Positions 11,977 through 37,277 of a DNA stretch of 47,643 nt are shown piece after piece (positions within the stretch are counted from its first letter, which is position 1; each line of letters begins with the position of its first letter). This DNA comes from Clostridia bacterium. GTDB lineage: Bacteria > Bacillota > Clostridia > Peptostreptococcales > JAAYPU01. The notes below the pieces were generated by a model. That model saw only the letters and a list, made by a program, of their open reading frames with translations, did no database searches and was not told the origin of the DNA. Made by a program: the position numbers and the translations under genes. Location: assembly GCA_016278615.1 (NCBI GenBank), contig JADQBM010000001.1:1-47643 (forward strand). The letters are read 5' to 3'.

Positions 11977-12053
11977 AAGTATTAAGTATAAGTAGACTCC
12001 TTTGGAGTAGGTTAAGTTTACTTAACTTAAACTTAAACTTATCCTTAATACTT
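11977..12053. repeat. Structured intergenic element, possible three-way junction
   Basis: Long outer arms (11977-11994 and 12037-12053; AAGTATTAAG against CTTAATACTT plus flanking pairs) enclose two inner hairpins, ACTCC-AAA-GGAGT and GTTAAG-TAAA-CTTAAC. It lies 7 bp past the ATPase stop and upstream of rlmD, and could serve as its terminator or as a mobile repeat unit. No strong U-tract is present. Confidence 0.6.
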
Positions 12054-12060
12054 CTATTTT

Positions 12061-19361: not shown

Positions 19362-20342
19362 TTATTCACATTTCTGGTTTTTTCTAGCTATTACTTTCTC
19401 TACTTTACTAGCTATATGAACACCAGATAGCTCAAATCTTTCTTTTAAATATTCTAGTGACCCTACTTCCCCAAAGATATCTTGAACGCCTATTCTTTCC
19501 ATTGATACGGGTGTATTTTCACATAATACTTCTGCCACTGCACTTCCAAGTCCATTAATTATGTTGTGATTTTCTGCAGTTACGATTGCACCAGTTTCTT
19601 TTGCCGCCTTAATGATTGATTCTTTGTCTATTGGTTTTATCGTAAACATATCTAAAACCCTAACGCTTATTCCTTTTGTTTCTAAAATTTTTGCTGCATC
19701 TATTGCTTCTGCTACACATATGCCACAAGCTATTATTGTTGCGTCTGTTCCTTCTCTTATCTTTATTGCTTTTCCTATTTCAAATGATGAACCTACTTCA
19801 TATACTTTTCGCACAAATTTTCTAACCAATCGAATGTAGTGCATTCCATATATGTCTGCTACTTGTTTTACTATATTATCTATGACTGTTGAATCTGCTG
19901 GTTCTATTACTGTCATTTCTGGAATACCTCTCATGATACCTAAATCTTCAAAAGGCATATGCGTTCCACCATTTAATGCTGCTGTTACGCCTGGGTCACT
20001 TCCTATTACTTTTACATTTTGCTTAGCATAAGCACAAGACATAAATATTTGATCACATACTCTTCTTGTTGCAAATACCCCAAAAGTATGTGCAAAAGGT
20101 ATAAATCCTCTTACAGATAATCCTGCTGCTACACCTATCATATTTGCTTCTTGTACCCCTACATCAACTGTTCTCTCTGGAAATTCTGTTTGAAATGGCT
20201 TTGTACCCATTGCTGCCATTAAGTCAGAATCCAGCATAACTACCTTTTCATTTTCTCGGGCACACTCTTGTAAGGCTTTACAATATACTTTTCTCATTTC
20301 TACCGATTCTTGGTTGTTTTCTTTTGCTAATACAACGCTCAT
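19362..20342 (-). CDS. Transketolase C-terminal subunit (TK1-C)
   Basis: About 326 aa, the pyrimidine-binding plus C-terminal half of a split thiamine-diphosphate transketolase. Markers: LDSDLMAAMG, VDVGVQEANMIGVAAG (activating Glu), FATRRVCDQIF, THMPFEDLGIMR and TAENHNIINGLGSAV. Start at ATG 20342, overlapping the N-subunit stop by 4 bp (ATGA). With TK1-N it transfers two-carbon units between ketose and aldose phosphates or analogues. A paralogous pair is at 36260-38111. Presence inside a transporter/AOR operon suggests an unusual acceptor or donor rather than housekeeping pentose metabolism. Confidence 0.92.
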   Translation of the reverse strand: MSVVLAKENNQESVEMRKVYCKALQECARENEKVVMLDSDLMAAMGTKPFQTEFPERTVDVGVQEANMIGVAAGLSVRGFIPFAHTFGVFATRRVCDQIFMSCAYAKQNVKVIGSDPGVTAALNGGTHMPFEDLGIMRGIPEMTVIEPADSTVIDNIVKQVADIYGMHYIRLVRKFVRKVYEVGSSFEIGKAIKIREGTDATIIACGICVAEAIDAAKILETKGISVRVLDMFTIKPIDKESIIKAAKETGAIVTAENHNIINGLGSAVAEVLCENTPVSMERIGVQDIFGEVGSLEYLKERFELSGVHIASKVEKVIARKNQKCE

Positions 20343-21193
20343 TTTTTCTCCCCACCCTTTATCTCTGCTAATTCTATTTCTAATTCTGATAATGCTTGAT
20401 CTAGCTGTTCTTCGTTTATAGCCATACTGTGGGATCCAATCTTTCCTGCTGTTAAACAAGCTCCTTTTCCTTTAATTGTATTGAGAATTATAATTGAAGG
20501 CTTTTCATTTTGTGCTTTGGAATTATGAATAGCTCGAGATATTTCTTGGACATTATGTCCATCTATTTCTTGACTGTACCATCCAAACTCACTAAACTTA
20601 GCTCCTATATCTGTCAAATCACATACTTCGTGAATATAGCCATCGATTTGACATTTGTTATAATCTACAAATGCTATTATCTTGGATAACTTTCTATGCC
20701 CCGCGAATAATGCAGCTTCCCAAACTTGACCCTCTTGAATTTCACCATCACCTAAGATTAAATAGGTATAGGCGTCAAGGCCTTTCATCTTGTTCCCCAG
20801 TGCGATGCCCATGGCAGAACTTGCACCTTGTCCTAATGAGCCTGTTGTCATATCTATACCTGGTGTTTTATTCATATCACAATGACTGGGCAAGTTTGTC
20901 CCTGGCTTATTGAGTGTCTTTAACATTTCTTTATCAAAATAACCCTTTAATGCTAATGCCGCATATACAGATGGTCCTGCATGACCTTTTGATACGACTA
21001 ACCAGTCTCTTTCTTCCCACTTGGGATTTTGAGGGTCAATTTTCATTTCTCCATTATATAAAACAGCCAGAACATCCACTATTGATAATGATCCGCCTAT
21101 ATGTCCTGATCCTAAATTCGAAATCGCTTTAAATACTTCTTGTCTAATTGAATTTGCAAATATTCTCGTTTCTAATACCTTTTGGTTATTCAA
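20339..21193 (-). CDS. Transketolase N-terminal subunit (TK1-N)
   Basis: About 284 aa, the thiamine-diphosphate-binding half of a split transketolase. Markers: SGHIGGSLSIVDVL, LSKGHAGPSVYAAL, TGSLGQGASSAMGIALG, and the cofactor signature LGDGEIQEGQVWEAALFAG followed by DYNKCQIDG. The start is taken as TTG 21193 because GGGGAGG lies 6 bases before it and the resulting N-terminus aligns with the paralogue at 37278-38111; the ATG at 21232 lies upstream of that site. Coupled with TK1-C by a 4-bp overlap. Confidence 0.9.
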   Translation of the reverse strand: MNNQKVLETRIFANSIRQEVFKAISNLGSGHIGGSLSIVDVLAVLYNGEMKIDPQNPKWEERDWLVVSKGHAGPSVYAALALKGYFDKEMLKTLNKPGTNLPSHCDMNKTPGIDMTTGSLGQGASSAMGIALGNKMKGLDAYTYLILGDGEIQEGQVWEAALFAGHRKLSKIIAFVDYNKCQIDGYIHEVCDLTDIGAKFSEFGWYSQEIDGHNVQEISRAIHNSKAQNEKPSIIILNTIKGKGACLTAGKIGSHSMAINEEQLDQALSELEIELAEIKGGEKK

Positions 21194-21302
21194 TTTTTGC
21201 CTCCCCTTTGCAGCATATATTAAAATCAACATCGAAAATCACATTGAAATTATCATTTTTTAAAATATAAGAATTATGATTGCTAAGACTGAGTTTTTTA
21301 TA

Positions 21303-22417: not shown

Positions 22418-23380
22418 CTATACACTCTTCTTATCATGCAAACCTTGAAGAACAGTTGCAACTACAATGATAAGGCCTTTAAATATCATTTGGGCATAAG
22501 ATGGCACATTTATTAAGTTAAGAAGGTTGCTTAATATACCAATTACAAGTATGCCTATAACTGTACCAAATATAGTGCCCGAACCACCCTTTAGGCTTGT
22601 ACCTCCTATAACGGCCGCCGCAATAGCATCCATTTCCATACCTGTACCTAATCGTGCTTCTCCTACATTTAAGTGTGTGGCCATGATAATTCCAGCAAAA
22701 CCCGCTAGAAGTCCAGATAGACCATATATATAAATGGTTACTCTATCAACATTAATACCAGAAAGTTTACTGGCTTCTGGATTGCCTCCAATTGCATAAG
22801 TGTATCTTCCAAACGGTGTATATTTTAATATAATGGCGATAATGATTGCCACAGAAATGAACAATATCGCTTGAAAGGGTATAACACCAAAAACCTTTCC
22901 TTGTCCAATAAATCTTAGCATTTCTGGTGTTCCAATGATTGGGTGGCCTTTAGAGTAAGTCAACCCCAGTCCAGTGTAAATACTCATGGCACCAAGGGTA
23001 ACAATGAATGGCTGCACCTTAAACTTTGTAATGACTGTCCCGTTTAATAAGCCAGCGCATAAACCAAAAATCAATGGTCCTACAAATGCGGCAACTATGC
23101 CATATTCTTTTAAACCAGCTACTAATAAAGCTCCACATGCTAGTATAGGTCCAACAGACAAGTCAATACCTCCTGTTAGAATAACAAGCGTCATACCAAT
23201 ACTAACAATTCCAATAATAGATATCTGACGTGCTATATTTAATAAGTTGCCTGGCTTCAAAAATACCGGAGTTATTAAGGAACATATAACAAACAGAACT
23301 AATAAAAGTAACAACATACCATATTTTTCAAAATAAGTCCCTAAATGCATGCTATTTTTCTTGTTATTGATTTCTTCCAT
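22418..23380 (-). CDS. Sugar ABC transporter permease, RbsC type
   Basis: Protein of 320 aa with eight to ten hydrophobic helices, BPD_transp_2 family. Typical segments: VSIGMTLVILTGGIDLSVGP, KFKVQPFIVTLGAMSIY, YAIGGNPEASKLSGINV and GTSLKGGSGTIFGTVIG. It forms the membrane channel, probably as a homodimer, for the importer. Its ATG overlaps the last base of the ATPase gene stop. It could also be the docking partner for the ATPase-dead RbsA-like protein at 29533-30930 (inference). Confidence 0.92.
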   Translation of the reverse strand: MEEINNKKNSMHLGTYFEKYGMLLLLLVLFVICSLITPVFLKPGNLLNIARQISIIGIVSIGMTLVILTGGIDLSVGPILACGALLVAGLKEYGIVAAFVGPLIFGLCAGLLNGTVITKFKVQPFIVTLGAMSIYTGLGLTYSKGHPIIGTPEMLRFIGQGKVFGVIPFQAILFISVAIIIAIILKYTPFGRYTYAIGGNPEASKLSGINVDRVTIYIYGLSGLLAGFAGIIMATHLNVGEARLGTGMEMDAIAAAVIGGTSLKGGSGTIFGTVIGILVIGILSNLLNLINVPSYAQMIFKGLIIVVATVLQGLHDKKSV

Positions 23381-24867
23381 TAATTACAACCTCCCATTGC
23401 ATATTCTAATATTTTTTCTTCTGTCACTTCTTCGTGTGTGAGCTCTCCATTAATTCTACCTTCACGCATCACTAGAACTCTGTCACTCATGCCAATAATT
23501 TCTGGTAATTCTGAAGAAATCATTATTACAGCTGTTCCATTATTACTGAGTTCACGCATTAAGTTATATATCTCTACTTTTGCTCCAACGTCAATTCCTC
23601 TTGTTGGCTCATCTAGAATAATAATTCTACACTCTCTAGCTAACCATTTTCCTAGAACGACTTTTTGTTGATTTCCTCCACTTAGGTTAACTGCTTTAGC
23701 TTCCATGCTTGGAGTTGCAATCTTTAAACTTTTAATATATCGATTCGCAATTTCTTTTTCTTTGTATTTATTGACAAATGCTTTATTAGTAATACTTTTT
23801 AATAAAGAAATACATATGTTTTCTCTTATAGTTAGGCCCAGAATTAATCCTTGCGATTTCCTATCTTCTGTGACAAATCCAATACCTTGCTTCATTGCAT
23901 CTATTGATTGATTGATGGTTACTTCTTTGCCATCAATCTTGATTACACCGCTATCAATTTTATCAGCACCAAAAATCGCCCGTGCTAATTCAGTTCGACC
24001 AGAACCAACAAGGCCAGCAATACCAAGCACTTCACCCTTATTAGCAGTAAAATTAATGTTATCTAGTACACCCTTGCGCGAAAGTCCCTTAACTTCTAAA
24101 ATTGGCGTCTTATTAACACTTGATATGTCTGGATAGATTTCACTTAGTTCTCTACCAACCATCATTCTAATAAGACTGGATTCATCAATTTCATCAATAT
24201 CTTTTGTTCCAATATACTCCCCATCTTTTAAAACAGTGACTCTATCAGCACACTCAAAGATTTCTGATAAGTGATGAGAAATAAATATTATTGTAACGCC
24301 TTTTTCCTTTAAACTACAAACAATTTCAAAAAGTGCATCGATTTCATTGTTGGTTAAAGATGCCGTAGGTTCATCCATTATGATAAAAGAGGCGTCCATA
24401 GATAGGGCCTTGGCTATTTCAATCATCTGTTGCTGAGCAACACTTAATTTCCTAACAGGAACTTCTAAATTTATTTTAATATTGAGACTTCTTAGTATTT
24501 CTTGTGATCGTTTTTTCATTTCTTTAAAGTTAACAAATTGTCCATTCTTTATTTCTCTACCAAGAAAAATATTTTCAACAGCATTCATATTTGGAACCAA
24601 ATTTAATTCCTGATGAATAATAGCAATTCCTAAATCTTGTACATCATGAGGCGTTTTAGCTTTTAGAGGCTTCCCTTCAAAGAAAATCTCACCACTTGTT
24701 GGCGTAGACGCTCCGCTAAGCAGTTTAATCAAAGTAGATTTTCCAGCACCATTTTCGCCCATCAAAGCGTGTACTTCACCCTTCTTACAAGAAAATGTAA
24801 CATTGTTTAAAGCTGTGACCCCAGGAAATTTTTTGGTTATATTTTTCATTACTAAAATATCTGACAT
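23380..24867 (-). CDS. Sugar ABC transporter ATPase, RbsA type (two active cassettes)
   Basis: Protein of 495 aa with two nucleotide-binding domains. NBD1: Walker A GENGAGKST, signature LSVAQQQ, Walker B MDEPTASL. NBD2: degenerate Walker A GLVGSGRTE as usual in the family, signature LSGGNQQK, Walker B LDEPTRGIDVG. It energises import by the RbsC/RbsB-type partners encoded immediately downstream, with a 1-base overlap to the permease. It is the direct comparison for the dead homologue at 29533-30930. Family secure; substrate unknown. Confidence 0.93.
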   Translation of the reverse strand: MSDILVMKNITKKFPGVTALNNVTFSCKKGEVHALMGENGAGKSTLIKLLSGASTPTSGEIFFEGKPLKAKTPHDVQDLGIAIIHQELNLVPNMNAVENIFLGREIKNGQFVNFKEMKKRSQEILRSLNIKINLEVPVRKLSVAQQQMIEIAKALSMDASFIIMDEPTASLTNNEIDALFEIVCSLKEKGVTIIFISHHLSEIFECADRVTVLKDGEYIGTKDIDEIDESSLIRMMVGRELSEIYPDISSVNKTPILEVKGLSRKGVLDNINFTANKGEVLGIAGLVGSGRTELARAIFGADKIDSGVIKIDGKEVTINQSIDAMKQGIGFVTEDRKSQGLILGLTIRENICISLLKSITNKAFVNKYKEKEIANRYIKSLKIATPSMEAKAVNLSGGNQQKVVLGKWLARECRIIILDEPTRGIDVGAKVEIYNLMRELSNNGTAVIMISSELPEIIGMSDRVLVMREGRINGELTHEEVTEEKILEYAMGGCN

Positions 24868-24884: not shown

Positions 24885-25796
24885 CTATAATAATTCTACG
24901 ATAAGACCTTTGTTTTTAAATGCTTCAGCCCAATTCTTCATATCATATTCAGAAGGAGACTTAATCTCAGCTAAATCATAAATTAAACCAAGTTGATTAT
25001 ATTTTGCTTTTCCTAAACTGTGATACCCTAAAAGGTGTACAACACCATTGGGGTTATTCTCACTTATAAAGTTTGCAAGATTATTTAAATCTTTTTCATT
25101 GGTGTTGATTCCCGGAATTAAGGGTAATCTTGTAACAACATCTTTTAATTTAATTATTTTTTTATAATTATCTAAAATAGTCCTATTTTCAACGCCAGTA
25201 TACTTTAAATGTGTATCATTATCTATTGACTTAAGATCAAATAATAATAAATCAGCTTCCTTTACTGCATCATAAAATATGTTCCAATTTACATATCCAG
25301 TGGTTTCTATTGCTACATTAAATCCATACTTTCTTATTTCAGGAATTAAATTTCTCAAAAACTCGGGTTGCATAACAGGTTCACCACCAGATATGGTTAC
25401 GCCGCCATGTGATTTTTTATAAAAATGTGCATCTCTTTTTACTTTTTCTATAACTTCTTCTACTGTGTAAAACTGTCCGATTTTACTAATGGCTTGAGTG
25501 GAGCAAGTTTCTGAACATTCTAGACAGTTTACACACATATCCCAATCAATTTCTATCATGTTGTTAACATTTTTTATAGCATCTACTCTACAAGCTCCCA
25601 CACAAGTATTGCAATTTATACACTTAGCTGAAGAATAGTTTATCTGGGTGTTATTTAGAAAAGCCTCAGGATTAGAACACCATTTACAATTCAATGGACA
25701 ACCTTTTAGAAAAACAACTGTCCTTATTCCAGGGCCATCATGAATAGAAAATCTTTGAAAATTAAAAATCAATCCTTTTTTTTCTATGTTACTCAA
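24885..25796 (-). CDS. Glycyl radical enzyme activase 1 (radical SAM)
   Basis: Protein of 303 aa. Radical SAM cluster motif CPLNCKWCSN (CxxxCxxC), preceded by FSIHDGPGIRT, then two ferredoxin-type [4Fe-4S] motifs: CINCNTCVGAC and CVNCLECSETC. SAM-binding GGEP (ISGGEPVMQ) follows. This is the layout of PFL/CutD-type activases that place the radical on the glycine of a partner enzyme. It starts at TTG 25796, supported by GAGGTGATCAA; no ATG fits. It lies 71 bp downstream of glycyl radical enzyme 1, its presumed target. An equivalent pair is at 42158-45443. Confidence 0.92.
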   Translation of the reverse strand: MSNIEKKGLIFNFQRFSIHDGPGIRTVVFLKGCPLNCKWCSNPEAFLNNTQINYSSAKCINCNTCVGACRVDAIKNVNNMIEIDWDMCVNCLECSETCSTQAISKIGQFYTVEEVIEKVKRDAHFYKKSHGGVTISGGEPVMQPEFLRNLIPEIRKYGFNVAIETTGYVNWNIFYDAVKEADLLLFDLKSIDNDTHLKYTGVENRTILDNYKKIIKLKDVVTRLPLIPGINTNEKDLNNLANFISENNPNGVVHLLGYHSLGKAKYNQLGLIYDLAEIKSPSEYDMKNWAEAFKNKGLIVELL

Positions 25797-25867
25797 TTGA
25801 TCACCTCATTGAATACGTGTAAAGCATAAACTGCCCCTGCTGTACTATTCATCAATTTAAAATTCTA

Positions 25868-28249
25868 TCAAAAAGTACTCTGCTCTGTTCTAAGGATGAT
25901 ATCATCCTGTACACCTCTATCCAGTTCAGTAAAGAAGGCACTATATCCAGCAACTCTAATAATTAAACCCTTATGCTCTTGCGGGTTTTCTTGAGCAGCT
26001 CTTAATGTTTCAGAAGATACCACATTAAACTGAATATGCCATCCCCCCATGTCAAAGTATCCTAAGATGAGATCTAATAAACCTTCTTTACCTCTCTCAT
26101 CTTTTAGAAGCGTTGGGGTAAACTTTTGATTTAAAATTGTTCCATTTGTAATGATTTTGTGATTTAGTTTTGATGCAGAACTTGCAATTGCAGTAGGTCC
26201 AAATTTATCAGTACCATGTTCAGGACCAATACCATCAGCTAAAGCACCTCTTTTTAATTTACCATTAGGAAGTGCACCCACGTGTTGACCTAGTGGAACA
26301 TTTCCTGATACTGAATATATTCCCGGTCTGTATATACCGCCTCTTGTATTTTTATACTTGGATACTGTATCACAGTAAATTTGGGCGACTTCTGCCGCGA
26401 TTTCATCCACATAATCTTCATCATTTCCCCACTTTGGAGCTTTGTTAATAAGTTGTTGTCTTAATATTTCTTTTCCATTAAAGTCATTTCTCATAGCATC
26501 TAATAATTCATGCATTGTAATAGACTTTTCTTCAAATATTAATTTTTTCAGTGCTGCCAAGGAATTTGCAACATCTGCAAAACCAACAGCTTGAGGGCCC
26601 GTATAGTTGTATCTTGCACCACCCGAAGTGACATCTAAACCTACTTCTATACAATCATCCAAAACCAGCGAGAAGTAAGGTAGGGGGAAATGTTTGGCGT
26701 GAATTTTTTCTATAATCTGTAGAGCAATTACCATGTGCTTAACATATGCTTCTACCTGAATTTTAAATGCTTTAATTACATCTTCAATGTTATTGAAGTT
26801 ATTTGGATCACCTGTATTGGGGCCAATTTGTATTTCTTTTAGCTGACACACCCCGTCATTTAAAGCAAGTTCAAGTGCTTTTGCAATATTTGACATTGCC
26901 GCGTTTGTCATCCCATTACAATGTGGAGGCACTGCTTCAACACAACCAGAAATGCTATAGTCTCTAGCTTCTTCCAGTGGAACACCCGAAGACATTAAAA
27001 CAGATATACCAACATCATCATTAAAGAATTCAGGCTTACTTCTACCACTACTTACCACGTCAACAGCCTTCTTTAAAAAATGCTTTGGACTTTTAGTGTG
27101 TACTCTTACTGCTAAGTTTGGTTGGGGTAATAAAGTATTTCTTTCTGCTTCCAGGCACATTAGTGATAACTCATTTGTAACGTCTTCCCCAGTAGCATCA
27201 ATTCCACCTAGTACAAGATTTTCAGAAATAGAGAAACCAGCATAGTATTTTGCGCTTTCGTAACTGTAGGCTCTCATAATTTCTGTAAACTTTATCCACA
27301 AGCATTCCAATAGTTCTTGAACTTCTCCATCCACTATAGAACCTTCTTCAATACTTTTTTTGTAGTATGGATACATAAACTGATCAAATCTTCCAACAGA
27401 AACAGCTAAGCCGTTTTGCTCAATATATAACAACAAGTGAGAAAACCAGAAAGATTGAACCGCTTCTCTAAAATTTTCAGCAGGTTTTTCGGGAACATTA
27501 TCGCAAATTTCTGCTATACTTAATAACTCTTTCTTCCAACGTTCATCTTCTTCTATACGGGCTAATTCTCTTGCCTTGGCAGCATATCTATGGGCAAAGC
27601 TGATAATGGCATCACTAATAATAAGCATAGAGCAATATAGCTCGTACTTTTCTGAACTATCTGGCTGAGTCATATCAAGATTGCTCAGTTTTACATTAAT
27701 GTCTTCTTTTAACCCTGCGAATCCTTTTCCTAAAACTTTTTCGTAGTTAACGATAACGTGACCAATACTACCTGTCATATGAATATCTACAGAGAAAATT
27801 TGGTCTTGTAGCGTAACAAGCCGCTTTGTTTCTTCTGGTAATGCTTTTAAAACTAGAGATTTAGTATCTTTATTTTTCCAATATGGCAGAATATCTTCTA
27901 ATAGCTCTTTTTTTATATTGTCTTTTACAATTAATCTATCTTGTTCTCTTTTTTCAAATAAATCAATTTCTTCCTCCAAATAAGTACTTTCTGTTTCAGG
28001 AAAAAGAGGAGCAACTCTAAGGCTACTTGCCTGCGCCCCAACAATTAACTGGTCTTTTTGAATAAAAATAGTCATTTCATTAAGAACTTTTGAAATTGTC
28101 TTCGCACGCTTAAGAACCATTGGATCGCCTTCGTTTTCCTGATAAGCTTTAGTAACCAATCTAGCTCTTTCAATACAAATTTCTGGTTTAACATCTAACA
28201 ACTCATCGTTCAGTTTTATCGTTCTCCAATGTCTAACAGGGTTATTCAT
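25868..28249 (-). CDS. Glycyl radical enzyme 1, PFL2 (dehydratase/lyase) family
   Basis: Protein of 793 aa, cytosolic and oxygen-sensitive when activated. The active-site motif is SGCVEA with radical-relay Cys436 and Glu438, the general base of eliminating family members; the glycyl loop is RVAGYSAFF with Gly768. The Cys-loop continuation (VPPHCNGMTNAAM) differs from the GCVEP-type loops I know for glycerol/diol dehydratase and choline lyase. Substrate is unassigned. GRE dehydratases turn vicinal diols into aldehydes, which would fit the AOR and zinc alcohol dehydrogenase in the same operon (inference). AAAGGAGGAGT supports ATG 28249. C-S, C-N and C-C lyases of this family are alternatives. 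Confidence 0.9.
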   Translation of the reverse strand: MNNPVRHWRTIKLNDELLDVKPEICIERARLVTKAYQENEGDPMVLKRAKTISKVLNEMTIFIQKDQLIVGAQASSLRVAPLFPETESTYLEEEIDLFEKREQDRLIVKDNIKKELLEDILPYWKNKDTKSLVLKALPEETKRLVTLQDQIFSVDIHMTGSIGHVIVNYEKVLGKGFAGLKEDINVKLSNLDMTQPDSSEKYELYCSMLIISDAIISFAHRYAAKARELARIEEDERWKKELLSIAEICDNVPEKPAENFREAVQSFWFSHLLLYIEQNGLAVSVGRFDQFMYPYYKKSIEEGSIVDGEVQELLECLWIKFTEIMRAYSYESAKYYAGFSISENLVLGGIDATGEDVTNELSLMCLEAERNTLLPQPNLAVRVHTKSPKHFLKKAVDVVSSGRSKPEFFNDDVGISVLMSSGVPLEEARDYSISGCVEAVPPHCNGMTNAAMSNIAKALELALNDGVCQLKEIQIGPNTGDPNNFNNIEDVIKAFKIQVEAYVKHMVIALQIIEKIHAKHFPLPYFSLVLDDCIEVGLDVTSGGARYNYTGPQAVGFADVANSLAALKKLIFEEKSITMHELLDAMRNDFNGKEILRQQLINKAPKWGNDEDYVDEIAAEVAQIYCDTVSKYKNTRGGIYRPGIYSVSGNVPLGQHVGALPNGKLKRGALADGIGPEHGTDKFGPTAIASSASKLNHKIITNGTILNQKFTPTLLKDERGKEGLLDLILGYFDMGGWHIQFNVVSSETLRAAQENPQEHKGLIIRVAGYSAFFTELDRGVQDDIILRTEQSTF

Positions 28250-28313
28250 TCATACTCCTCCTTTAAAACACTTGTAACGTGTTTAACGTCAACAACATGC
28301 AAGATAACAACAG

Positions 28314-29339
28314 CTATATTCTTAGTAAAACCTTTAAATGTATTTGATCATTTATAGAAAAATTAATCGCTTCATTAACATCATCGATACTGTATTCATC
28401 TGTGATAATTTTCATTAAATCATCGTTTACCTGACCACTTTCAACAATACTTACAGCAGCTTTAAAATTCTCTAGGGAGTGAATCCGAACACCTTTTACA
28501 TTTAATTCTCTTGAGAAAATCGTTCTTGTGTCTACTGGATAATTCCCAGTAGGAACCCCTACTATTATAATTTTCCCTCCAGTTTTAGTAATATCAGTCA
28601 TCAACTTGGCACCAGGCGCAGAACCAGAAACTTCATAAACAGCATCAAAACCTTTTTTGTCAGTCATTTCTAATGCTTTTACCTCAACATCCTCATTTAA
28701 TGGATTAAATACATCAAAGCCTAATTCTTTGATAAACTTTATTCTATTTTCATTCACTTCACTTAATGCAATTTTTGAAGCACCATTTAATCTAGCTAAA
28801 ATAGCAATTAAAATTCCAATGGGGCCTCCTCCAATAACAAACGCAGTTTGGCCAATTAATAAATTGCTCTTTCTAATATCGTGAAGTGCTACCGCAATAG
28901 GCTCTACTAAAGCTGCAAGCCTTAAATCCACATTACTAGAAAGTTTAAAAACTTTTCTTAAGGGTACTTTTATATATTCTGCAAAGCATCCATTTGTATG
29001 AACTCCATATATTTTTAAATCTCCACAAACATTATCCATGCCTTTTCCACAGATTTCACACATTTCACATGAAGTGAAAGGTTGACCTACAACATTGTCT
29101 CCTACTTTTAGATCCGTTTCCCTATTAGTTCTTATTTCAACGATTTCACCAGAAAACTCATGACCAAGAACGACTGGTGGTTTTGCAGCTGGATGATGAC
29201 CTTGATAAACATGAACATCCGTACCACAAATACCTGCATACTTTACTTTAATCAATACTTGGTCATTGTCATTTAATTCAGGTTCACTTATATCTTCAAC
29301 AACTATGTTTTCAAAGTCTTTTAAAACAGCAGCTTTCAT
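28314..29339 (-). CDS. Zinc-dependent alcohol/polyol dehydrogenase 1 (MDR family)
   Basis: Protein of 341 aa. Catalytic zinc site: CGTDVH and GHE (VVLGHEFSGE) with a later Glu in VEP. Structural zinc: four cysteines in SCEMCEICGKGMDNVC. The NAD(P) site is VIGGGPIGIL. It interconverts a secondary alcohol or polyol with the ketone, or an aldehyde with an alcohol. As first gene of the long operon it is expressed from the promoter carrying the AAGAATGCCC repeats. It resembles sorbitol/threonine dehydrogenase-type enzymes; a paralogue is at 34797-35819. Confidence 0.88.
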   Translation of the reverse strand: MKAAVLKDFENIVVEDISEPELNDNDQVLIKVKYAGICGTDVHVYQGHHPAAKPPVVLGHEFSGEIVEIRTNRETDLKVGDNVVGQPFTSCEMCEICGKGMDNVCGDLKIYGVHTNGCFAEYIKVPLRKVFKLSSNVDLRLAALVEPIAVALHDIRKSNLLIGQTAFVIGGGPIGILIAILARLNGASKIALSEVNENRIKFIKELGFDVFNPLNEDVEVKALEMTDKKGFDAVYEVSGSAPGAKLMTDITKTGGKIIIVGVPTGNYPVDTRTIFSRELNVKGVRIHSLENFKAAVSIVESGQVNDDLMKIITDEYSIDDVNEAINFSINDQIHLKVLLRI

Positions 29340-29471: not shown

Positions 29472-29533
29472 ATTTTATCATTTACGCCCGTTTCAATTCA
29501 AAGGGCATTCTTAATATAAAAGGGGGCATTCTT
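29472..29533 (-). promoter_or_regulatory. Operon 1 promoter with AraC-type direct repeats
   Basis: Two direct copies of AAGAATGCCC (29524-29533 and 29503-29512) are exactly 21 bp apart, two helical turns. They sit next to a likely promoter, TTGAAT (29496-29501) - 18 bp - TAAAAT (29472-29477), on the minus strand. The spacing and position against the -35 suit activation by the AraC-type response regulator encoded upstream (31997-33604). Confidence 0.65.
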
Positions 29534-30930
29534 TACATGTTTAATATAATTTTACGCCCTAAAATGTTTACTTCAAACTCGTTGGAGGTTAAAATAATTA
29601 CACCTATCCTCTTTTCTGCTAAACTGTTAATTAGTTTTATCGTTAACTCTCTCATACTGGTATCAGAAGTAGAAAAAGGTTTAACGCATACAACAACTTT
29701 GGGTTTATATAAATGCCATCTATAATACACGAGTTTTTGAAAATCTTTTTCTGAAAACTTTTTAGCATTATCCAGCATATTTTTGCCGTCAAAAAAACGC
29801 TTATAATCTTTAGAAAAAATTCTTTTATAATGATGATACATCCAAAACCAATTAATTCTCTTTGATGTAATAAAACATAGATTATCACTAAAGTTTAAAT
29901 TATCAAAAACCATTTTTTCTGAGGCGTATTCATTAATAAAAGCGACACCTTTATTTAATGCTTGCCAATAATCATCTGCTAAATAGGGTTTGTCATCGAC
30001 AATTATCTCTCCCTTTTCAGGTTTTAATTTACCACTTAATAATTCTCTGATATTGTTTAACGCATTACCATCTTTATCGATTAAGCTAACAATTTCTCCT
30101 TCTTTTACTAAAAAACTCGTATTATTAAGCTCATTACTGGTGATGTTTTTAAATTCTATTGCTACTTTATCTGATTTTGACATTTGTTTCTGACTTTCAG
30201 ATATTTCTCTATAGAAATATGATTTTAACTGTCTGTCATCATAGTCATCAATATCAAAAGTCCATGTATTTACACCATTTTGCATTACAATAACTCTGTC
30301 GCAAAAAAACTGAAAAATATCGCTATAACTGTCTATTAGAATTATAGATATTCCCATATTCTTTATTTTTTTCACATAATCAAATATTTCTTTTATCTCC
30401 ACATCTGATAAATATGCTGATAGGTCTTTTAGTATAATAATTTTTGCGCCTGAGGTGTAGGCTTTTGCAATTTCAATAGATTTTTTTTGAAGGTTGTTCA
30501 AGTTTCCAACAATTGTAGAAGGATTAAGGGGAATGTTTAATATGTTTAAAATTTCACTGGCTCTAAAATTTATATCCTTATAGTTAATAAAAAATCCTTT
30601 ATAACTATACTTCATAACAAAAATGTTTTCACTAATAGTCAGCTTGTCTATTAATACGCTTTTCTCTTGAATTAATACGATATTTTTTCTCAGAAAATCA
30701 TCATTATGATTATTGAACAAAACAGGTTGATCGTCAAAACATATTCGTCCTGTTGTACATGGAATAATACCTAAGAGCAAATTGATTAAGTAATTCTTTT
30801 CTTTTACATTATCAATAAATACGCCTATTACTTCATTTTGATAAAGATTTAAGAAAAATTGATTAAGAACTCTGTTATTTTTTGAGTCATCTACTATCAC
30901 ATTTTCTATTCTTAAAATTTCGTGTTTCAT
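29533..30930 (-). CDS. ATPase-dead RbsA-like ABC protein
   Basis: Protein of 465 aa that aligns along its length with RbsA-type double cassettes but lacks the catalytic motifs. Where Walker A should be it reads GVFIDNVKEKN (NBD1) and SLIDKDGNALNN (NBD2); NBD1 signature is NLNNLQKK instead of LSxGQQQ; Walker B DEP is replaced by LKDLSAYL and CVKPFSTSD. The fold core (IEIAKAY, CDRVIVMQNG) is retained and the frame is fully open, so it is not simply a pseudogene. It is encoded 43 bp after the histidine kinase and before the transporter operon. A regulatory subunit linking transporter and kinase is a plausible role (inference). Confidence 0.8.
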   Translation of the reverse strand: MKHEILRIENVIVDDSKNNRVLNQFFLNLYQNEVIGVFIDNVKEKNYLINLLLGIIPCTTGRICFDDQPVLFNNHNDDFLRKNIVLIQEKSVLIDKLTISENIFVMKYSYKGFFINYKDINFRASEILNILNIPLNPSTIVGNLNNLQKKSIEIAKAYTSGAKIIILKDLSAYLSDVEIKEIFDYVKKIKNMGISIILIDSYSDIFQFFCDRVIVMQNGVNTWTFDIDDYDDRQLKSYFYREISESQKQMSKSDKVAIEFKNITSNELNNTSFLVKEGEIVSLIDKDGNALNNIRELLSGKLKPEKGEIIVDDKPYLADDYWQALNKGVAFINEYASEKMVFDNLNFSDNLCFITSKRINWFWMYHHYKRIFSKDYKRFFDGKNMLDNAKKFSEKDFQKLVYYRWHLYKPKVVVCVKPFSTSDTSMRELTIKLINSLAEKRIGVIILTSNEFEVNILGRKIILNM

Positions 30931-30973
30931 ATTCTCCTCTCCTCTAATATTTCATTTCATAATAGCAACCTAC

Positions 30974-31984
30974 TTATTTAAAAAAGGGTAAAGTAATCTC
31001 TACATTAGTACCAAAATTCACTACACTAGAAAGTCTAATTCCGTATTTTTCTCCAAATAGAAGCTTAATTCTATTGCTTACATTTGTAAGTGCAATACCT
31101 CCAGAGGAAGCATATTCTTCGTCATCTTTTTCTACCGTAATTTTATATAGTTTTTCATTTATTTTCTTTACTTTTTCTTTGTCAATGCCTATACCATCAT
31201 CTTGAATATTTATAATTATTCTGCTAGTAGTAGGATGGATATCAATATTGACAATTCCCTTACCTACTTTATATTCTAATCCATGAACAATTGCATTTTC
31301 AATTATAGGTTGCATCGTTAGCTTAGGAATTTTATACTGAAGATGTGATTCCTCTTCATATTTTATATCTATATTAATTTTATCTCCAAACCTAAATTTT
31401 TGAATGTTAAAATAATTTAGTACGTTAGAGATTTCTTCTTCAATCGTAACTAAATGTTCCACATTTGAAATGGTGTATCTAAAAAATGTTGCCAATGCTT
31501 CGATAATATCGGCAATATCTTCTACTCCTTCTGAAATAGCATCCCCTCTAATAGCTTCTAGAATATTGTATAGAAAATGAGGATTAATTTGATTTTGTAA
31601 TGCAAGATATTCGGCATATTTGTTGGCTTGCTGTATAGATTTTTGATCATATAGCTGTTCTTTATTTTTCAAATAACTCATTTCCATGGCATCTGAGAAA
31701 TAACATGTAGCATTTTCTAAAATATCGTAATCATGCCCTTTAATATACTGTTGTAAATATCTTTCAATTTTTTTAAAAGGCAGAATAATAATTCTATTAC
31801 AAAGGTATAAAAATAATAAAAATAGAATAAACAAAACTAAAAAAATAATTTTAAAAAACATACTGACTTCGTAAAGTGAAATCAATAAGAAACCTGTTAA
31901 AAAAAGGAGGGAAAAAAGGAATAAACCTATGATTCCATAAATCTTAATTCTTTTATCCAAATTAAATTTGTTTATAAGTTTCAT
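30974..31984 (-). CDS. Sensor histidine kinase, YesM/LytS-like, without extracellular sensor domain
   Basis: Protein of 336 aa. Two adjacent TM helices (residues about 15-37 and 41-63) are separated by only a few residues (SLYEVS), so no periplasmic sensing domain exists. The His_kinase motif LQNQINPHFLYN gives the phosphorylated His; HATPase has QPIIENAIVHGLEY and DDGIGID. It phosphorylates the response regulator encoded just upstream. YesM-type kinases normally carry a large extracellular dCache domain, so this one must receive its signal from another protein, perhaps the transporter or the dead ABC protein that follows. Confidence 0.9.
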   Translation of the reverse strand: MKLINKFNLDKRIKIYGIIGLFLFSLLFLTGFLLISLYEVSMFFKIIFLVLFILFLLFLYLCNRIIILPFKKIERYLQQYIKGHDYDILENATCYFSDAMEMSYLKNKEQLYDQKSIQQANKYAEYLALQNQINPHFLYNILEAIRGDAISEGVEDIADIIEALATFFRYTISNVEHLVTIEEEISNVLNYFNIQKFRFGDKINIDIKYEEESHLQYKIPKLTMQPIIENAIVHGLEYKVGKGIVNIDIHPTTSRIIINIQDDGIGIDKEKVKKINEKLYKITVEKDDEEYASSGGIALTNVSNRIKLLFGEKYGIRLSSVVNFGTNVEITLPFFK

Positions 31985-31996
31985 TTTACACCTCTA

Positions 31997-33604
31997 TCAG
32001 CAATAAAACTTCCTATATTTAGAAGGGCTTAACCCCGTAATCTTTTTAAATTGTTTAGCAAAATGTTTAACATCATTATACCCCACATCAAAAGAAATCT
32101 GGTCTATTGATTTCTCTTGGTCTCTTAACATCTCTTGAGCTTTGTTCACACGAACCATGGTTAAATATTCTAAGAAATTTGTTCCTGTTTCCTTTTTAAA
32201 TAAGGTGGAAAAATAGGCAGTACAAAAACCTATTGATGAACTAACCTCTTCAAGTGTTATAGGCTTATTATAGTTTTCGTTTATATACCCTTTAGCAAAA
32301 CGAATAGGCTTGTTATTCTGCTGTTTTTTATTTTCTAAAAGCTCATTAAATATTTTGCTAATAAAACAATACACATAATTAAAAATACTTTCTATGCTGC
32401 TACACATATTTAATTCATAATAAAAGTTATCTAACATTTCTTGTTCCATATTAGTATTATCGACATTTTTAAGCTTGTAAAAATAAATGTCTATTAATTC
32501 TTTAATGACATCAAAAACCAGCTTACCATTTATATTTTCGCTTTCCTTGAGATTGCTTTTTATCAAATTGAAGGTTTGTAAAAGGTTTTCTTCTGTTATG
32601 ATATATAAATCATCACCAATTTGACGCCTTATGTCTTTTGTAATGATATTATCTCTGCTTAAATCAATCGTTGCTGTACCTTCGATAATTTTGTTTGTCC
32701 CATAAATCAGCCTGTCATAAGTAGCAAAATACGCTTGTTTTATGGTTGTAGATACTTGATTAATATCTACTGCATTTCCTAAACCAATAGTAACTCTAAG
32801 GTTATCAAAAAGTTCTCTTAATAAAGTAATCTCTTCTAAAGCAAATAGTAAAATTTTTCGAATACTCTTTTCCTTGTCTTCACTATAATTAATTAAAAAG
32901 CAAGTACCTTTATCTGAAGTATAGATCATGTAATCAGAACATACTTCTTTAAGACTTTTCGAAATTATTTCTAATGATTTTTTTTCTAGCATATTCTTTA
33001 TATTAATATTTTTTGTTGAGTTATTGATATCAGTTTTTAAAATTAAGGCTTGAAATAAATTTTCAGTAAAATTAAACCGATACTCTGTATTTAGGCTTTT
33101 TAAATCCAGTTCGGTTCTTAAATAGTTTTCGTTTTCAAAATAGTTTTTAACAAAGCTTTCTTGCAAGAATTTTTCATCTCTTTTAATCTGCTCTTTTATT
33201 GCTATATCTTCAGATTTTTTGCTGGCATTTTGTTCATATTTTTCTACCATTTTTTGTAATGTATTGTTAATTTCTTGCTTGTTTATAGGTTTCAATAAAT
33301 AATCTTTAACACCATATTTTATGGCATTATGCGCATATTCAAAATGCTTATAACCACTAATAATTATTAAGTCTATATCCCGATTCAACTCTTTAACACG
33401 TTTAATTAATTCAATTCCATCATAACCAGGCATCCTAATATCAGTAATAACAATATTAGGATTATGCTCTTTAATCATCTCAAAAGAAGAAATCCCATCA
33501 TTTGCTATACCAATAAGCTCTATATCTAAACGATTCCAGTCAATTAAATTACTGATTAGTCGTGCTACCCTAGGCTCATCATCACAAATCATCAGTTTAT
33601 ACAT
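31997..33604 (-). CDS. Response regulator with AraC-type DNA-binding domain, YesN-like
   Basis: About 535 aa. The receiver domain (residues about 1-120) has acidic pocket CDDEP, phosphoacceptor Asp in VITDIRMPG and LLKPI lysine. A long linker region follows, then an AraC HTH at the C-terminus (YNKPITLEEVSSSIGFCTAY and IDQISFDVGYNDVKHFAKQF). Start chosen at ATG 33604, where the receiver begins and AAAGGGCGG precedes; the 36 extra upstream codons are AT-rich and unlike the family. It is first in an operon with the kinase and the dead ABC protein; probable target is the promoter at 29472-29533. Confidence 0.9.
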   Translation of the reverse strand: MYKLMICDDEPRVARLISNLIDWNRLDIELIGIANDGISSFEMIKEHNPNIVITDIRMPGYDGIELIKRVKELNRDIDLIIISGYKHFEYAHNAIKYGVKDYLLKPINKQEINNTLQKMVEKYEQNASKKSEDIAIKEQIKRDEKFLQESFVKNYFENENYLRTELDLKSLNTEYRFNFTENLFQALILKTDINNSTKNINIKNMLEKKSLEIISKSLKEVCSDYMIYTSDKGTCFLINYSEDKEKSIRKILLFALEEITLLRELFDNLRVTIGLGNAVDINQVSTTIKQAYFATYDRLIYGTNKIIEGTATIDLSRDNIITKDIRRQIGDDLYIITEENLLQTFNLIKSNLKESENINGKLVFDVIKELIDIYFYKLKNVDNTNMEQEMLDNFYYELNMCSSIESIFNYVYCFISKIFNELLENKKQQNNKPIRFAKGYINENYNKPITLEEVSSSIGFCTAYFSTLFKKETGTNFLEYLTMVRVNKAQEMLRDQEKSIDQISFDVGYNDVKHFAKQFKKITGLSPSKYRKFYC

Positions 33605-34016
33605 ATTTGTCCGCCCTTTCGTAATAGAGACTACTATCTTAAATTGTTCTACAACCTTAATAATTTTTTTATCAATATTTACTTTCTGGTTTTTATAAAA
33701 ATTTGATAACAAATTTTTAAAACTTTGTTATCACTTTCTTTCTACGTTTAAATTGAATAATTTACTAAATCCCAGTATTTAGTTGCTATATGCCACCTTA
33801 ATATATGTTATTATACATTATTTTTGTCTAAATTACAGTTTTCGTGAAATGGAAATCCTAGGAAATATAAGTGACCTTTAAAAGTCATAGAAATAAAAAT
33901 GAAATCAAAAAGGTTTTTAAGAGCTCGAAGAGAATTGGCAGTTACTCTCAAAGCTCTTTCATTTCCATTGGAAATAAATAAAAAATTCATTTCCATTTTA
34001 TTATTTGTTGGATATA
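33605..34016. other. Intergenic region before the two-component operon
   Basis: No gene seen. It holds the terminator of the downstream-reading SDR operon (33919-33958) and repeated ATTTCCATT words: TTCATTTCCATT occurs twice (about 33958 and 33989) and inverted as GAAATGGAAAT near 33847. These could be regulator sites for the two-component operon, but no regulator can be matched. Confidence 0.45.
33919..33958 (-). terminator. Terminator of the TK2-cupin-ADH2-SDR2 operon
   Basis: Arms AAGAGCTTTGAGAG and CTCTTCGAGCTCTT pair with two mismatches around a 12-base loop, followed on the minus strand by AAAAACCTTTTTG. It lies 58 bp past the SDR stop. Confidence 0.65.
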
Positions 34017-34781
34017 CTATTCTGTTTTATCTTGTCTTGGTTGACCTGTATGAATTTCAAGTCCTCCTGATACAGGAATATTTGCACCCATAATCCATGA
34101 TGCCTTATCAGATGCCAGGAAATACATTACTTCTGCAACTTCTTCTGATGTGCCCATTCTTTTGGCTGGGAAAGCAGCATTAAAAGAATTCAAGACTTCT
34201 TGAGTAGCTCCAGTTAAAAACATAGGCGTCAATGTTGCACCGGGACACACAGCATTAACTCGAATTCCTTTTTCAGCATAGTCTAGTGCCATAGACCGAG
34301 TAAGGTTCACCACAGCCCCTTTAGCACCACAGTATGCTGCAGCATTGTAGTCTCCAGCCAAACCAGAAACAGAAGCCGTATTTACAATACTTCCTTTTTT
34401 TCTATTTAGCATATCCGGAACAAAATACTTGGCAGAAAGATATATAGACTTCACATCTACATTAAATAATTTATCCCAATCTTCTGATTTGGTTTCATGT
34501 AAAGGTCCCCCGGAAAAAATACCTGCATTATTGATGAGGCTATCACAACCACCTATCTTCTCAATGGTGAAATCGTATAGTTTTTTCATGTCCTCATCTT
34601 TACTTACATCACCAAGCATAAAATAGACATCCTCATAACCTGCTTCCTTGAGTTCTTTGATAAAGGTTTCCCCTTCATTCTGATTAATCCCAATACAGAC
34701 AACTTGACACCCATTTTTTAGAAACAATTTTACTGCAGCTCGTCCCATTCCAGATGTACCACCCGTTATTACGACTCTCAT
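34017..34781 (-). CDS. Short-chain dehydrogenase/reductase (SDR 2, HTGQPR tail)
   Basis: Protein of 254 aa, classical SDR: GGTSGMG, NNAG, catalytic Ser in NTASVSG, and YCGAKG (YxxxK) with NAVCPG. Its tail GGLEIHTGQPRQDK and the motif GDYNAAAY pair it with SDR 1 at 16192-16989 (GDYDCCAY and HTGQPR). It is last in the operon transketolase-cupin-alcohol dehydrogenase-SDR, 15 bp after the dehydrogenase gene. The operon is probably repressed by the GntR protein through the site at 38245-38256. It probably acts on the same class of hydroxy/keto intermediate as SDR 1; identity unknown. Confidence 0.88.
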   Translation of the reverse strand: MRVVITGGTSGMGRAAVKLFLKNGCQVVCIGINQNEGETFIKELKEAGYEDVYFMLGDVSKDEDMKKLYDFTIEKIGGCDSLINNAGIFSGGPLHETKSEDWDKLFNVDVKSIYLSAKYFVPDMLNRKKGSIVNTASVSGLAGDYNAAAYCGAKGAVVNLTRSMALDYAEKGIRVNAVCPGATLTPMFLTGATQEVLNSFNAAFPAKRMGTSEEVAEVMYFLASDKASWIMGANIPVSGGLEIHTGQPRQDKTE

Positions 34782-34796
34782 ATTAACACCTCTTTC

Positions 34797-35819
34797 TTAA
34801 ATAATTGATACGATAACTTTTTGGCCATTGTTTACATTCTTTGCGCATTTAAAAGCTTCTGTGATATTCTCAAGAGAATAACGACAATCTGTAAAATATT
34901 CTAATTGAAACCTTTGACTATTTATAAGATTTATTGCATCTGTCATATCATAATCATCTGCAGATACCGATGATACAAAGCCGATTTCCCTTAATACAAT
35001 ATCGAACAATTGAAGGGGCGTTTCCTCTTCAATTCCAGTAAGGCCAAAGCCGATTACCTTACCTCCCGGCCTCGCCAAAGAAAAAGACAATTGATAATTA
35101 TCTGTCTTACCTTCAGCTTCCAAAACGAAATCAGCGCCTAGGCCTTCTGTTATGTCAAAAACTTTTGTTATTACATCAGCACTGTTTTTTAGAACATAAT
35201 CTGCGCCACATCTTTTTGCCTCTTGTAATCCTGTCTCATCATCACCAATTACAATAATCGGCGTGGCTGCACTTGCTTTGGTCATTTGAACATGCATCAA
35301 GGCAATGGCTGATGTCCCTAATATCACAATGCTCCCTCCAGGAAAATACTTCGCTTTCTTTGCCGTTCGAATCACATTGGCAAATGGTTCTATTAGTACC
35401 GCTTCAATTTCATCCATGTTTTTAGGGAGCACATATACTTTATTTTCTGGGGCTTTTACATATTCTGCAAAGCCACCATTTTTATGAATCCCTATTTGCT
35501 TACAAGTTTTGCACATTAACACTTGTCCATTTTTACAAAAGTAACATTTTCCGCAACCTAAATTTACATCAACGGTTACATACTGACCTGTTTTGATATT
35601 TTCAACACCTTTTCCTATCTTATAAACATAACCTGTAAATTCATGGCCCGGCGTAAAAGGTAGATATTCCTTTGAGAATTCACCCTTAAGTATTTTAAGA
35701 TCTGTCTCGCAAATACCGCAGTATTTCACTTTAATCAAAACTTCATTGTCACCTATTTCGGGTATCAATATGTCCTTTATAACAATTCTGCCAGGCTCTG
35801 TTATCACTGCAGCCTTCAT
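34797..35819 (-). CDS. Zinc-dependent alcohol/polyol dehydrogenase 2 (MDR family)
   Basis: About 340 aa. Catalytic zinc residues CETDLK and GHEFTG; structural zinc cysteines in LGCGKCYFCKNGQVLMC; NAD(P) site VILGTSAIALM, lacking the usual GxGxxG pattern (GTSAIA), so cofactor binding may differ. Start at ATG 35819 (MKAAVITEPG) chosen by alignment with paralogue 1 (MKAAVLKDFE); the upstream ATG 35840 has its ribosome site directly abutting. Third of four genes in the GntR-type operon. It resembles sorbitol/threonine dehydrogenases. Confidence 0.85.
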   Translation of the reverse strand: MKAAVITEPGRIVIKDILIPEIGDNEVLIKVKYCGICETDLKILKGEFSKEYLPFTPGHEFTGYVYKIGKGVENIKTGQYVTVDVNLGCGKCYFCKNGQVLMCKTCKQIGIHKNGGFAEYVKAPENKVYVLPKNMDEIEAVLIEPFANVIRTAKKAKYFPGGSIVILGTSAIALMHVQMTKASAATPIIVIGDDETGLQEAKRCGADYVLKNSADVITKVFDITEGLGADFVLEAEGKTDNYQLSFSLARPGGKVIGFGLTGIEEETPLQLFDIVLREIGFVSSVSADDYDMTDAINLINSQRFQLEYFTDCRYSLENITEAFKCAKNVNNGQKVIVSII

Positions 35820-35876
35820 TTTTTCTTTCAATGCATACATCCTTTCTTAATATGTTTTCAAGAACATGTCTATTTT

Positions 35877-36260
35877 CTAAAAGTCGTATCCCTCTTGAGG
35901 CGTATTGGGTACGGCTTCTGGTGTAGGAAAGAAACAAATTGTCTTCATTTCATAATTACCGGTATTATAAATCAAATGTGGGACTTGTGGATGCAAATTA
36001 AAAATAGACCCGGGCCGAATATCCTTTATTTCATTGCCTATTTTAACTTTTCCAATTCCTGAAATAACGTATATGGTTTCTTCTCCCTCAGGATGAGCAT
36101 GTGCTGGAAGAACACGAGAACCCGGGTTAATTGTGAATATACATACACTGGAATGCTCCGTACCATTCTTTTCTGGCGTCATTAACCAATTAACGGAACC
36201 GCCATTTAATTGAATGGGGTATTGTTCATCTTCATTTACAAAAGTTCCTTTTCTTTCCAT
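35877..36260 (-). CDS. Small cupin-domain protein
   Basis: Protein of 127 aa with a single cupin_2 barrel. Motif 1 is PAHAHPEGEETIYVISG (His, His, Glu metal ligands) and motif 2 PGSIFNLHPQVPHLIYN (His). Such cupins are sugar isomerases, epimerases or dioxygenases, or sensory domains. Its ATG shares one base with the transketolase stop (TAATG), so it is translationally coupled to the two-carbon transfer step; a ketose/aldose isomerase supplying that enzyme is plausible but unproven. Confidence 0.8.
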   Translation of the reverse strand: MERKGTFVNEDEQYPIQLNGGSVNWLMTPEKNGTEHSSVCIFTINPGSRVLPAHAHPEGEETIYVISGIGKVKIGNEIKDIRPGSIFNLHPQVPHLIYNTGNYEMKTICFFPTPEAVPNTPQEGYDF

Positions 36261-37258: not shown

Positions 37259-37277
37259 TATTTCACCTTCCCTATCT

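Follow-up and report, generated by a model that had tools for sequence, protein, structure and literature searches.

We looked at a stretch of 47,643 nt from a Clostridia bacterium (contig JADQBM010000001.1 of assembly GCA_016278615.1), called the window hereafter, in which three consecutive genes on the reverse strand encode a response regulator, a histidine kinase and a relative of RbsA, the ATPase of RbsABC importers, that has lost its catalytic motifs and is named pseudo-RbsA here. The response regulator (31997..33712) is of the AraC/YesN type, with a receiver domain and an HTH_18 helix-turn-helix domain; its start is listed as TTG, and an ATG at 33604 is probably the likelier one. The kinase (30974..31984, 336 residues) is of the YesM type and carries the PF06580 and HATPase_c domains. 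Pseudo-RbsA (29533..30930, 465 residues) is a full-length double ATP-binding cassette (ABC) protein recognized by PF00005. With a PF06580 kinase and a regulator ending in an AraC-type DNA-binding domain, the pair belongs to the YesM/YesN-type two-component systems. An earlier reading made from the DNA letters, the sequence-only reading, had delimited a two-gene system at 29533..31984; both genes are found there, but the module also includes the response regulator.

Pseudo-RbsA has lost its catalytic motifs and keeps a predicted ABC fold

None of the five catalytic motifs is intact in pseudo-RbsA, against five of five in the true RbsA encoded about 5 kb downstream. GENGAGKST, IIMDEP and GLVGSGRTE of RbsA are replaced with IDNVKEKNY, IILKDL and DKDGNALNN, and LSGGNQQK and IILDEP with FSEKDFQK and VVCVKP. 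On PF00005, pseudo-RbsA reached 54.5 bits and the true RbsA of the operon 196.9; among RbsA-type NCBIfam models, the best one gave pseudo-RbsA 146 bits, for a cut-off of 699. Two tandem RbsA-like cassettes were recognized over its full length (NCBIfam XylG/RbsA models span residues 3-457 and 20-462), and the AlphaFold model (predicted local distance difference test, pLDDT, 89) predicted a double-cassette ABC fold, whose top Foldseek matches in the PDB were double-cassette ABC proteins such as the OppD and DppD chains. The protein has no permease domain and is not a membrane carrier with a ligand site of its own. Among the 60 matches listed by a PDB sequence search, there was no full-length RbsA-type match for an RbsABC complex structure. 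These data bear out the sequence-only reading, in which the gene after the kinase was described as a full-length double ABC protein with an intact frame and with its Walker and signature motifs lost.

The same loss was observed in relatives: 39 pseudo-RbsAs besides that of the window scored 0/5 (L021 and L083, both scored, are one locus), while complete RbsAs encoded next to them scored 5/5. Pseudo-RbsA is thus predicted to have no ATPase activity. It might bind a nucleotide without hydrolysing it and report the energy state to the kinase, in line with the ABC fold that is predicted to be kept, with the GK pair that some relatives retain at the N-terminal Walker A and with the GxxxxGKT found there in locus L031. 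We consider this unlikely, as the window protein and its nearest relatives have lost the glycines of the P-loop, the acidic pair of each Walker B and the two signatures, and as GxxxxGK[ST] stands in the N-terminal Walker A slot of none of the 39 scored proteins.

The kinase is predicted to lack an extracellular domain

YesM/YesN-type kinases usually have a large extracellular sensor domain. In the AlphaFold model of the window kinase (pLDDT 83.9, predicted template modelling score 0.57), two helices (residues 9-36 and 42-81) are joined by five residues, and therefore no extracellular domain is expected, in agreement with what had been noticed from the letters. The NPHFLYN box and the other invariant catalytic residues of the family are kept. 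Across the 26 genomes carrying the module, all 23 PF06580 kinases of less than 400 residues among the matches listed adjoin a pseudo-RbsA gene, and the other PF06580 kinases listed have 417-703 residues; the short kinases of genomes G390, G956 and G863 have 345, 383 and 383 residues. In a hydropathy test, the outside loop measured 3-19 residues in the short linked kinases with two called helices; six short kinases had only one segment above threshold, and the kinase of L143 (444 residues, loop of 104) was not short.

As controls, 40 longer YesM kinases were hand-picked from the kinase list of the carrier genomes, and their surroundings (about 5 kb on each side) were scanned for RbsA-like open reading frames of at least 380 residues and 150 bits on the profile. 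A degenerate RbsA (three motifs or fewer out of five) was found near none of the 40, although a very diverged one could be overlooked because of this size and score filter. Three of the controls lay near RbsA-like genes with four to five motifs.

The window's own genome (G000) holds on contig C60, at 11268-12985 (L122), a YesM kinase split into a sensor frame and a catalytic frame and adjoining an RbsA whose motifs read intact. The 347-residue frame at this place was considered as a second short kinase, hence an exception, and rejected: it is the 3' part of the longer kinase, and the sensor part is in the next frame upstream.

The trio recurs beside RbsABC importers and is inherited together

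We annotated 36 pseudo-RbsA loci (L022-L031, L083-L103 and L106-L110); the window is not counted, and L021, being the same as L083, was omitted. The kinase is encoded directly upstream of pseudo-RbsA in 34 of them, the exceptions being L093 and L031, the latter beginning at the end of a contig. Regulator and kinase genes are both present in 32 loci, and two more are cut at the kinase. The gene following pseudo-RbsA encodes RbsA in 31 loci, three of which (L022, L095, L103) are cut within it by the contig end; RbsA and RbsC are found in 28 loci, and RbsA, RbsC and the solute-binding protein in 27. RbsA was not next in L029 (binding protein between), L030 (RbsACB upstream instead), L031, L093 and L099 (contig end). 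The trio that the sequence-only reading had suggested looking for beside RbsABC operons is therefore a recurrent arrangement.

Since every catalytic motif is lost and the branch of the window copy in the RbsA tree is long, pseudo-RbsA could be a decaying duplicate kept by chance. Several results speak against it. The frames are open over 448-564 residues in all 36 loci, and 15 columns are invariant in an alignment of 54 pseudo-RbsA sequences, query included. The ratio of nonsynonymous to synonymous substitutions (dN/dS) was 0.038-0.177 for pseudo-RbsA in the eight computable ones out of nine close pairs, some dS values being saturated, and 0.011-0.186 for the kinase and the regulator, which indicates that pseudo-RbsA is under purifying selection in close pairs. 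Moreover, genome G620 has an orphan pseudo-RbsA (L093) between ileS, encoding IleRS, and three M42 peptidase genes, far from the kinase, and on another contig a regulator, a 336-residue kinase and RbsACB without pseudo-RbsA: the gene was relocated yet retained. With the open frames, the dN/dS of 0.04-0.18, this retention and the co-inheritance with the kinase described below, a decaying pseudogene was rejected, and the chance-kept duplicate is extremely improbable.

In a quick kinase tree of 85 rows, 39 of the 41 short kinases grouped together (support 83), 36 of them at 100; those of L142 and L145 fell outside the group. Likewise, a quick RbsA tree of 85 rows placed 39 motif-less proteins on one side of a branch (support 95), 35 of them at 100. 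The diverged pseudo-RbsAs have very long branches in the latter tree, for which the program warns of false joins.

In a protein search, 53 sequences besides the query, among the best 120 of 180 matches, scored 191-405 bits, and the next one 149; below this gap came ordinary RbsAs with a few partly degenerate proteins (e.g., P0063, P0065, P0073). The motif-less protein thus recurs beyond chance: dozens of other records encode it in an open frame of full length. Among the carriers are metagenome-assembled genomes bearing the labels Herbinix, Anaerocolumna, Lachnospiraceae, Oscillospiraceae, Halanaerobiales and some more, and the protein search also matched Clostridium thermarum. The module was also seen on metagenome-assembled contigs labelled Propionivibrio and Betaproteobacteria (L022, L023 and L024; G+C content 0.55-0.61), by either misbinning or transfer out of Clostridia.

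Pseudo-RbsA was present in 10 of 297 genomes of an order sample (at least 386 bits), in 13 of 391 of a class sample (at least 403 bits), in 7 of 398 of a phylum sample (at least 438 bits) and in one of three of a family sample, namely the window's own, which is included in each count; in the large samples, the four to five best candidates per genome were scored. Four genomes (G468, G412, G703 and G910, 277-282 bits) were tried as carriers and excluded ahead of these counts, their best match being an RbsA with three of five motifs (G468) or with motifs that read intact.

The kinase subfamily followed the same distribution. Pseudo-RbsA and a kinase match scoring 250 bits or more, a threshold set after the scores were known, occur in the same 13 genomes of the class sample; in the phylum sample, the seven genomes with pseudo-RbsA are the seven with the kinase subfamily. 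Under 250 bits, 11 kinase matches were found in eight genomes of the class sample. Five of them, in five further genomes, are short (open frames of 335-372 residues), and all five have as neighbour a degenerate RbsA that the first search had missed because of its divergence: this RbsA has 0/5 motifs in L141 (on the opposite strand), L142 and L144, only a fragment at the contig end was left in L140, and four of five motifs remain in L145. The other six are longer (447-660): no full-length RbsA-like gene was close by in L146, L148 and L149, and partly degenerate ones lay near the kinases of L104, L143 and L147. Since short kinases and degenerate RbsAs also pair in this kinase-side search, motor decay and sensor loss appear to be coupled, with intermediates. 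Partly degenerate RbsAs were seen near YesM kinases of 352-600 residues in L104, L143, L145 and L147; they look like intermediate stages of motor decay.

A candidate operator precedes the importer genes

Right behind the pseudo-RbsA stop lies a direct repeat with a period of about 21 bp, AAAGAATGCCCC-N8-TTAAGAATGCCC (29503..29534, reverse strand, read from 29534 to 29503), a candidate operator for the response regulator. It adjoins a promoter-like site (29472..29501, same strand) made of TTGAAT, 18 nt and the extended -10 TGATAAAAT. A first direct-repeat scan of the gaps gave a clear signal in few loci, and a scan of whole loci seeded with the window copy alone worked. In the latter, the best match of the locus fell within the gap between pseudo-RbsA and RbsA in 23 of 30 loci, these 30 being only the loci with such a gap and ties being counted in favour; 0.24 would be expected by gap length, and 200 shuffled seeds gave a mean of 0.80 and a highest value of 8. 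By first rank, the count was 21 of 40 loci. TGnTAnnnT was found 20-23 bases (mostly 21) past the repeat in the window and in the 18 loci examined first, and 20-23 bases past the best in-gap match in all 30 loci (four of them with favourable ties), for a background of 0.65% of all positions and 0.9% in upstream regions. This second test was not blind for nine loci, because the pattern was chosen after viewing nine gap sequences, and fewer than 30 loci are independent, because near-duplicates are among them (e.g., L022/L024, L107/L108, L086-L089).

Given the conserved repeat and promoter geometry, the likely role of the trio's regulator is to activate the promoter of the importer in relatives and that of the operon of alcohol dehydrogenase, glycyl-radical enzyme and importer in the window. 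We infer both that it is this regulator that binds the repeat and the direction of control. The position of the sites also bears on another possibility, that pseudo-RbsA is a brake or an assembly factor of the importer, competing with RbsA for RbsC and taking no part in signalling, while the kinase senses something different via its membrane helices. Pseudo-RbsA is indeed a motor paralogue encoded next to the motor. However, it sits in the regulator-kinase block, upstream of the operator and promoter of the importer, and its presence tracks the kinase subtype and not RbsA in general (of the 297 genomes in the order sample, 129 had an RbsA-type match at E <= 1e-60 and 10 had pseudo-RbsA). We consider such a role quite improbable, slightly more so than the binding of a nucleotide discussed above.

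The window importer belongs to another subfamily

All genes of the window operon are on the reverse strand. The regulator, kinase and pseudo-RbsA genes are followed, after a gap of 193 bases, by a Zn-dependent alcohol dehydrogenase resembling threonine dehydrogenase (28314..29339), the first gene past the operator, a glycyl-radical enzyme of the PFL2-3 subfamily (25868..28249), its activase (24885..25796), the true RbsA with five motifs intact (23380..24867), an RbsC-type permease (PF02653; 22418..23380), a sugar-type solute-binding protein (PF13407; 21344..22309) and a transketolase N-terminal half (20339..21232), the probable end of the operon. Hence the pair does precede a true RbsABC importer, as had been proposed, but alcohol dehydrogenase, glycyl-radical enzyme and activase intervene in the window.

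The RbsA of this importer falls outside the 30-row clade formed by the usual operon RbsAs. The usual RbsC is 85% identical between carriers G401 and G178, and no close counterpart of it was found in the window's genome (98.97% complete), where the top match, at 34%, is the window's own RbsC. With an RbsA and RbsC of another subfamily, the trio and operator of the window therefore appear to serve another RbsABC importer together with a glycyl-radical pathway.

The glycyl-radical enzyme scored 818.9 bits on the PFL2-3 subfamily model and stayed under the equivalog cut-offs among the matches listed. This enzyme, its activase and the alcohol dehydrogenase (24885-29339) are co-directional with the RbsABC importer, a cluster that possibly represents a new catabolic route for a sugar or polyol. 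The open reading frame after the transketolase half (19362..20459, reverse strand) was assumed to be the C-terminal half. Past the intergenic region 33713-34016, a second cluster (34017-38111) was read by eye as a short-chain dehydrogenase/reductase, an alcohol dehydrogenase, a cupin and two transketolase halves; counting it with the frames at 19362-21232, the window would hold two split transketolases.

Pseudo-RbsA as a proposed third component of the signalling system

The dead motor is co-inherited with a kinase devoid of an external sensor, and it is therefore likely to be the sensing part that this kinase is missing. We find it highly probable that pseudo-RbsA has a role in signalling. 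That it is a conserved, predicted ATPase-dead motor paralogue acting as a third component in place of the sensor domain of the kinase is the reading that we favour with moderate confidence. In the mechanism proposed, pseudo-RbsA would keep the ABC fold and part of the surface that faces the permease. It would dock on the RbsC dimer, alternating with RbsA or replacing it, or on the kinase beside it, and relay whether a ligand-loaded binding protein engages the permease. The kinase would then phosphorylate the AraC-type regulator, which would bind the operator next to the -35 element and turn on the importer, together with the glycyl-radical enzyme operon in the case of the window. As for the docking partner, we give RbsC slightly less than an even chance. 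A more specific version, in which the RbsC dimer carries either RbsA for transport or pseudo-RbsA for sensing, and in which the loaded binding protein sets the permease in motion without ATP, a motion that pseudo-RbsA passes to the kinase, is put forward tentatively and is rather less probable.

Residue conservation was looked at in this respect. Pseudo-RbsAs (34) and RbsAs (30) have 27% of consensus residues in common (the window counts in both sets, and L021, L029-L031, the control loci and the divergent ones were left out). Within pseudo-RbsAs, conservation is 2.04 and 2.12 bits in the Walker A segments and 2.34 in the C signature, for a family average of 2.41. The stretch past the N-terminal Q-loop (LTVADNIFV), which we take to be the usual contact with the coupling helix of the permease in ABC importers, shares 8 of 18 consensus residues with RbsA and stands at 3.05 bits, and the Asn of both post-Q-loop segments (N102, N350) is invariant in the 54 sequences. 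This conservation at the groove of the N-terminal half gives a hint, albeit a weak one, of docking on a permease.

Several observations weigh against the sensing role, or against RbsC as its partner. The hint of docking is itself faint, the C-half counterpart of the LTVADNIFV stretch sharing only 3 of 17 residues with RbsA, at 2.86 bits. Within the family, the former Walker B and H-loop segments, which carry other residues than in RbsA, are conserved to the same degree as these stretches (2.8-3.2 bits). The motif rule is blurred by intermediates: L031 keeps its N-terminal P-loop, the RbsA beside the short kinase of L145 has four of five motifs, with the C-terminal signature lost, and longer kinases lie near partly degenerate RbsAs in L104 (3/5), L143 (2/5) and L147 (2/5). 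The operator was not the top whole-locus match in 7 of the 30 loci, and in the divergent lineages (L029, L141-L145) the window-seeded scan found none ahead of rbsA. The sequence-only reading had named sporadic occurrence or broken frames in relatives as evidence to the contrary; the frames are intact and linked to the kinase, but pseudo-RbsA is rare, in 3-4% or less of the sampled genomes. Finally, the partner swap in the window is the main argument against a fixed pair of pseudo-RbsA and RbsC: as the importer subfamily differs, pseudo-RbsA has either become adjusted to a different permease or has a partner other than RbsC. The window copy is in this sense an interesting outlier. A dedicated pseudo-ATPase for a sensor-less kinase beside an importer, as first suggested, thus has the support of selection, co-inheritance and synteny, and the operator ties it to the expression of the importer. 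The docking on RbsA or RbsC that came with this suggestion is not supported, and the importer of the window is of the other subfamily.

These points lead to a rival in which pseudo-RbsA would be a cytosolic sensor or scaffold on the kinase alone, with no importer contact, maybe recognizing a metabolite via remodelled nucleotide pockets. The trio being kept in the window despite the different importer would fit with it, as would the conservation of the former Walker B and H-loop segments in altered form, and the kinase and pseudo-RbsA frames overlap by four bases in L029, L030 and L085, like those of complex partners. On the other hand, the adjoining operon is nearly always RbsABC, even in L029 and L141-L145, and a general metabolite sensor would not need an importer. 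We hold this rival to be somewhat unlikely, and retain the third component linked to the importer as the preferred reading.

Comparison with known systems

The closest designs appear to be UhpC-UhpB, the Bce modules and three-component systems based on a solute-binding protein, such as CuaDSR. In hexose-phosphate sensing by UhpABC-UhpT of E. coli, the transporter-type UhpC works with the sensor kinase UhpB. The E. coli uhpABCT genes follow the order regulator, kinase, paralogue and transporter, as in pseudo-RbsA loci, where a transporter paralogue lies beside the kinase and regulator genes and upstream of the transporter genes. UhpC is a membrane carrier able to bind the ligand itself, whereas here the paralogue is a soluble ABC motor without catalytic motifs and the kinase is of the YesM type. 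BceRS-BceAB, with its relatives among the intramembrane-sensing kinases, resembles our system in having a two-helix kinase with hardly any outside loop that depends on an ABC transporter. There, however, the BceAB transporter itself senses, with no separate dead ATPase, while here an RbsABC importer with a binding protein stands beside a PF06580 kinase and an AraC-type regulator; the operon permease is of the PF02653 RbsC type and not a BceB-type permease with a large extracytoplasmic loop. The likeness to BceS-BceAB drawn at first thus extends to the kinase topology only, the kinase being of the YesM PF06580 type. In MalK-MalT of E. coli, the ATPase of a sugar importer transmits the transport state to a transcription activator; MalK is a working ATPase and acts without a kinase, unlike pseudo-RbsA. 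Pseudo-enzymes are well known as signalling parts in the case of kinases.

The clostridial CuaD-CuaS-CuaR system also combines a YesN/AraC-type regulator, a kinase and a sensing importer-type part beside an importer operon (PMC10384115), a paper in which XylFII-LytS appears as a cited structure. In that system, the binding protein docks on the large extracellular domain of the kinase (CuaS, 627 residues) (PMC10384115), whereas in ours, unlike in the systems based on a solute-binding protein, the extra part is an ATPase and the extracellular kinase domain is gone. In Enterococcus faecalis, two adjacent ATPase genes, pstB1 and pstB2, serve one importer with non-overlapping roles (PMC12096839); both are ATPases, of about 60% identity, and no motif-less paralogue tied to a kinase is described in the excerpt of that paper (PMC12096839). 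A dead ATPase as the sensing part is not described in the excerpts of PMC5703999, PMC10314905 and PMC10384115 or of the reviews PMC7828314 and PMC6978683, and among the open-licence PubMed Central papers listed by literature searches, none had a title or abstract beginning that describes a motif-less RbsA with a kinase.

For annotators, these results give a reason to avoid the name 'ribose transport system ATP-binding protein' for pseudo-RbsAs, which one source applies to several of them, and the operator consensus is usable for regulon mapping. If pseudo-ABC-ATPases do form a family that serves a histidine kinase, this would be a new coupling of sugar uptake to gene control, and the system lends itself well to studying how signalling by an ABC permease could work in the absence of ATP. 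If RbsA and pseudo-RbsA do alternate on the permease, a pseudo-ATPase reserved for this task would read an outside signal by way of the transport channel.

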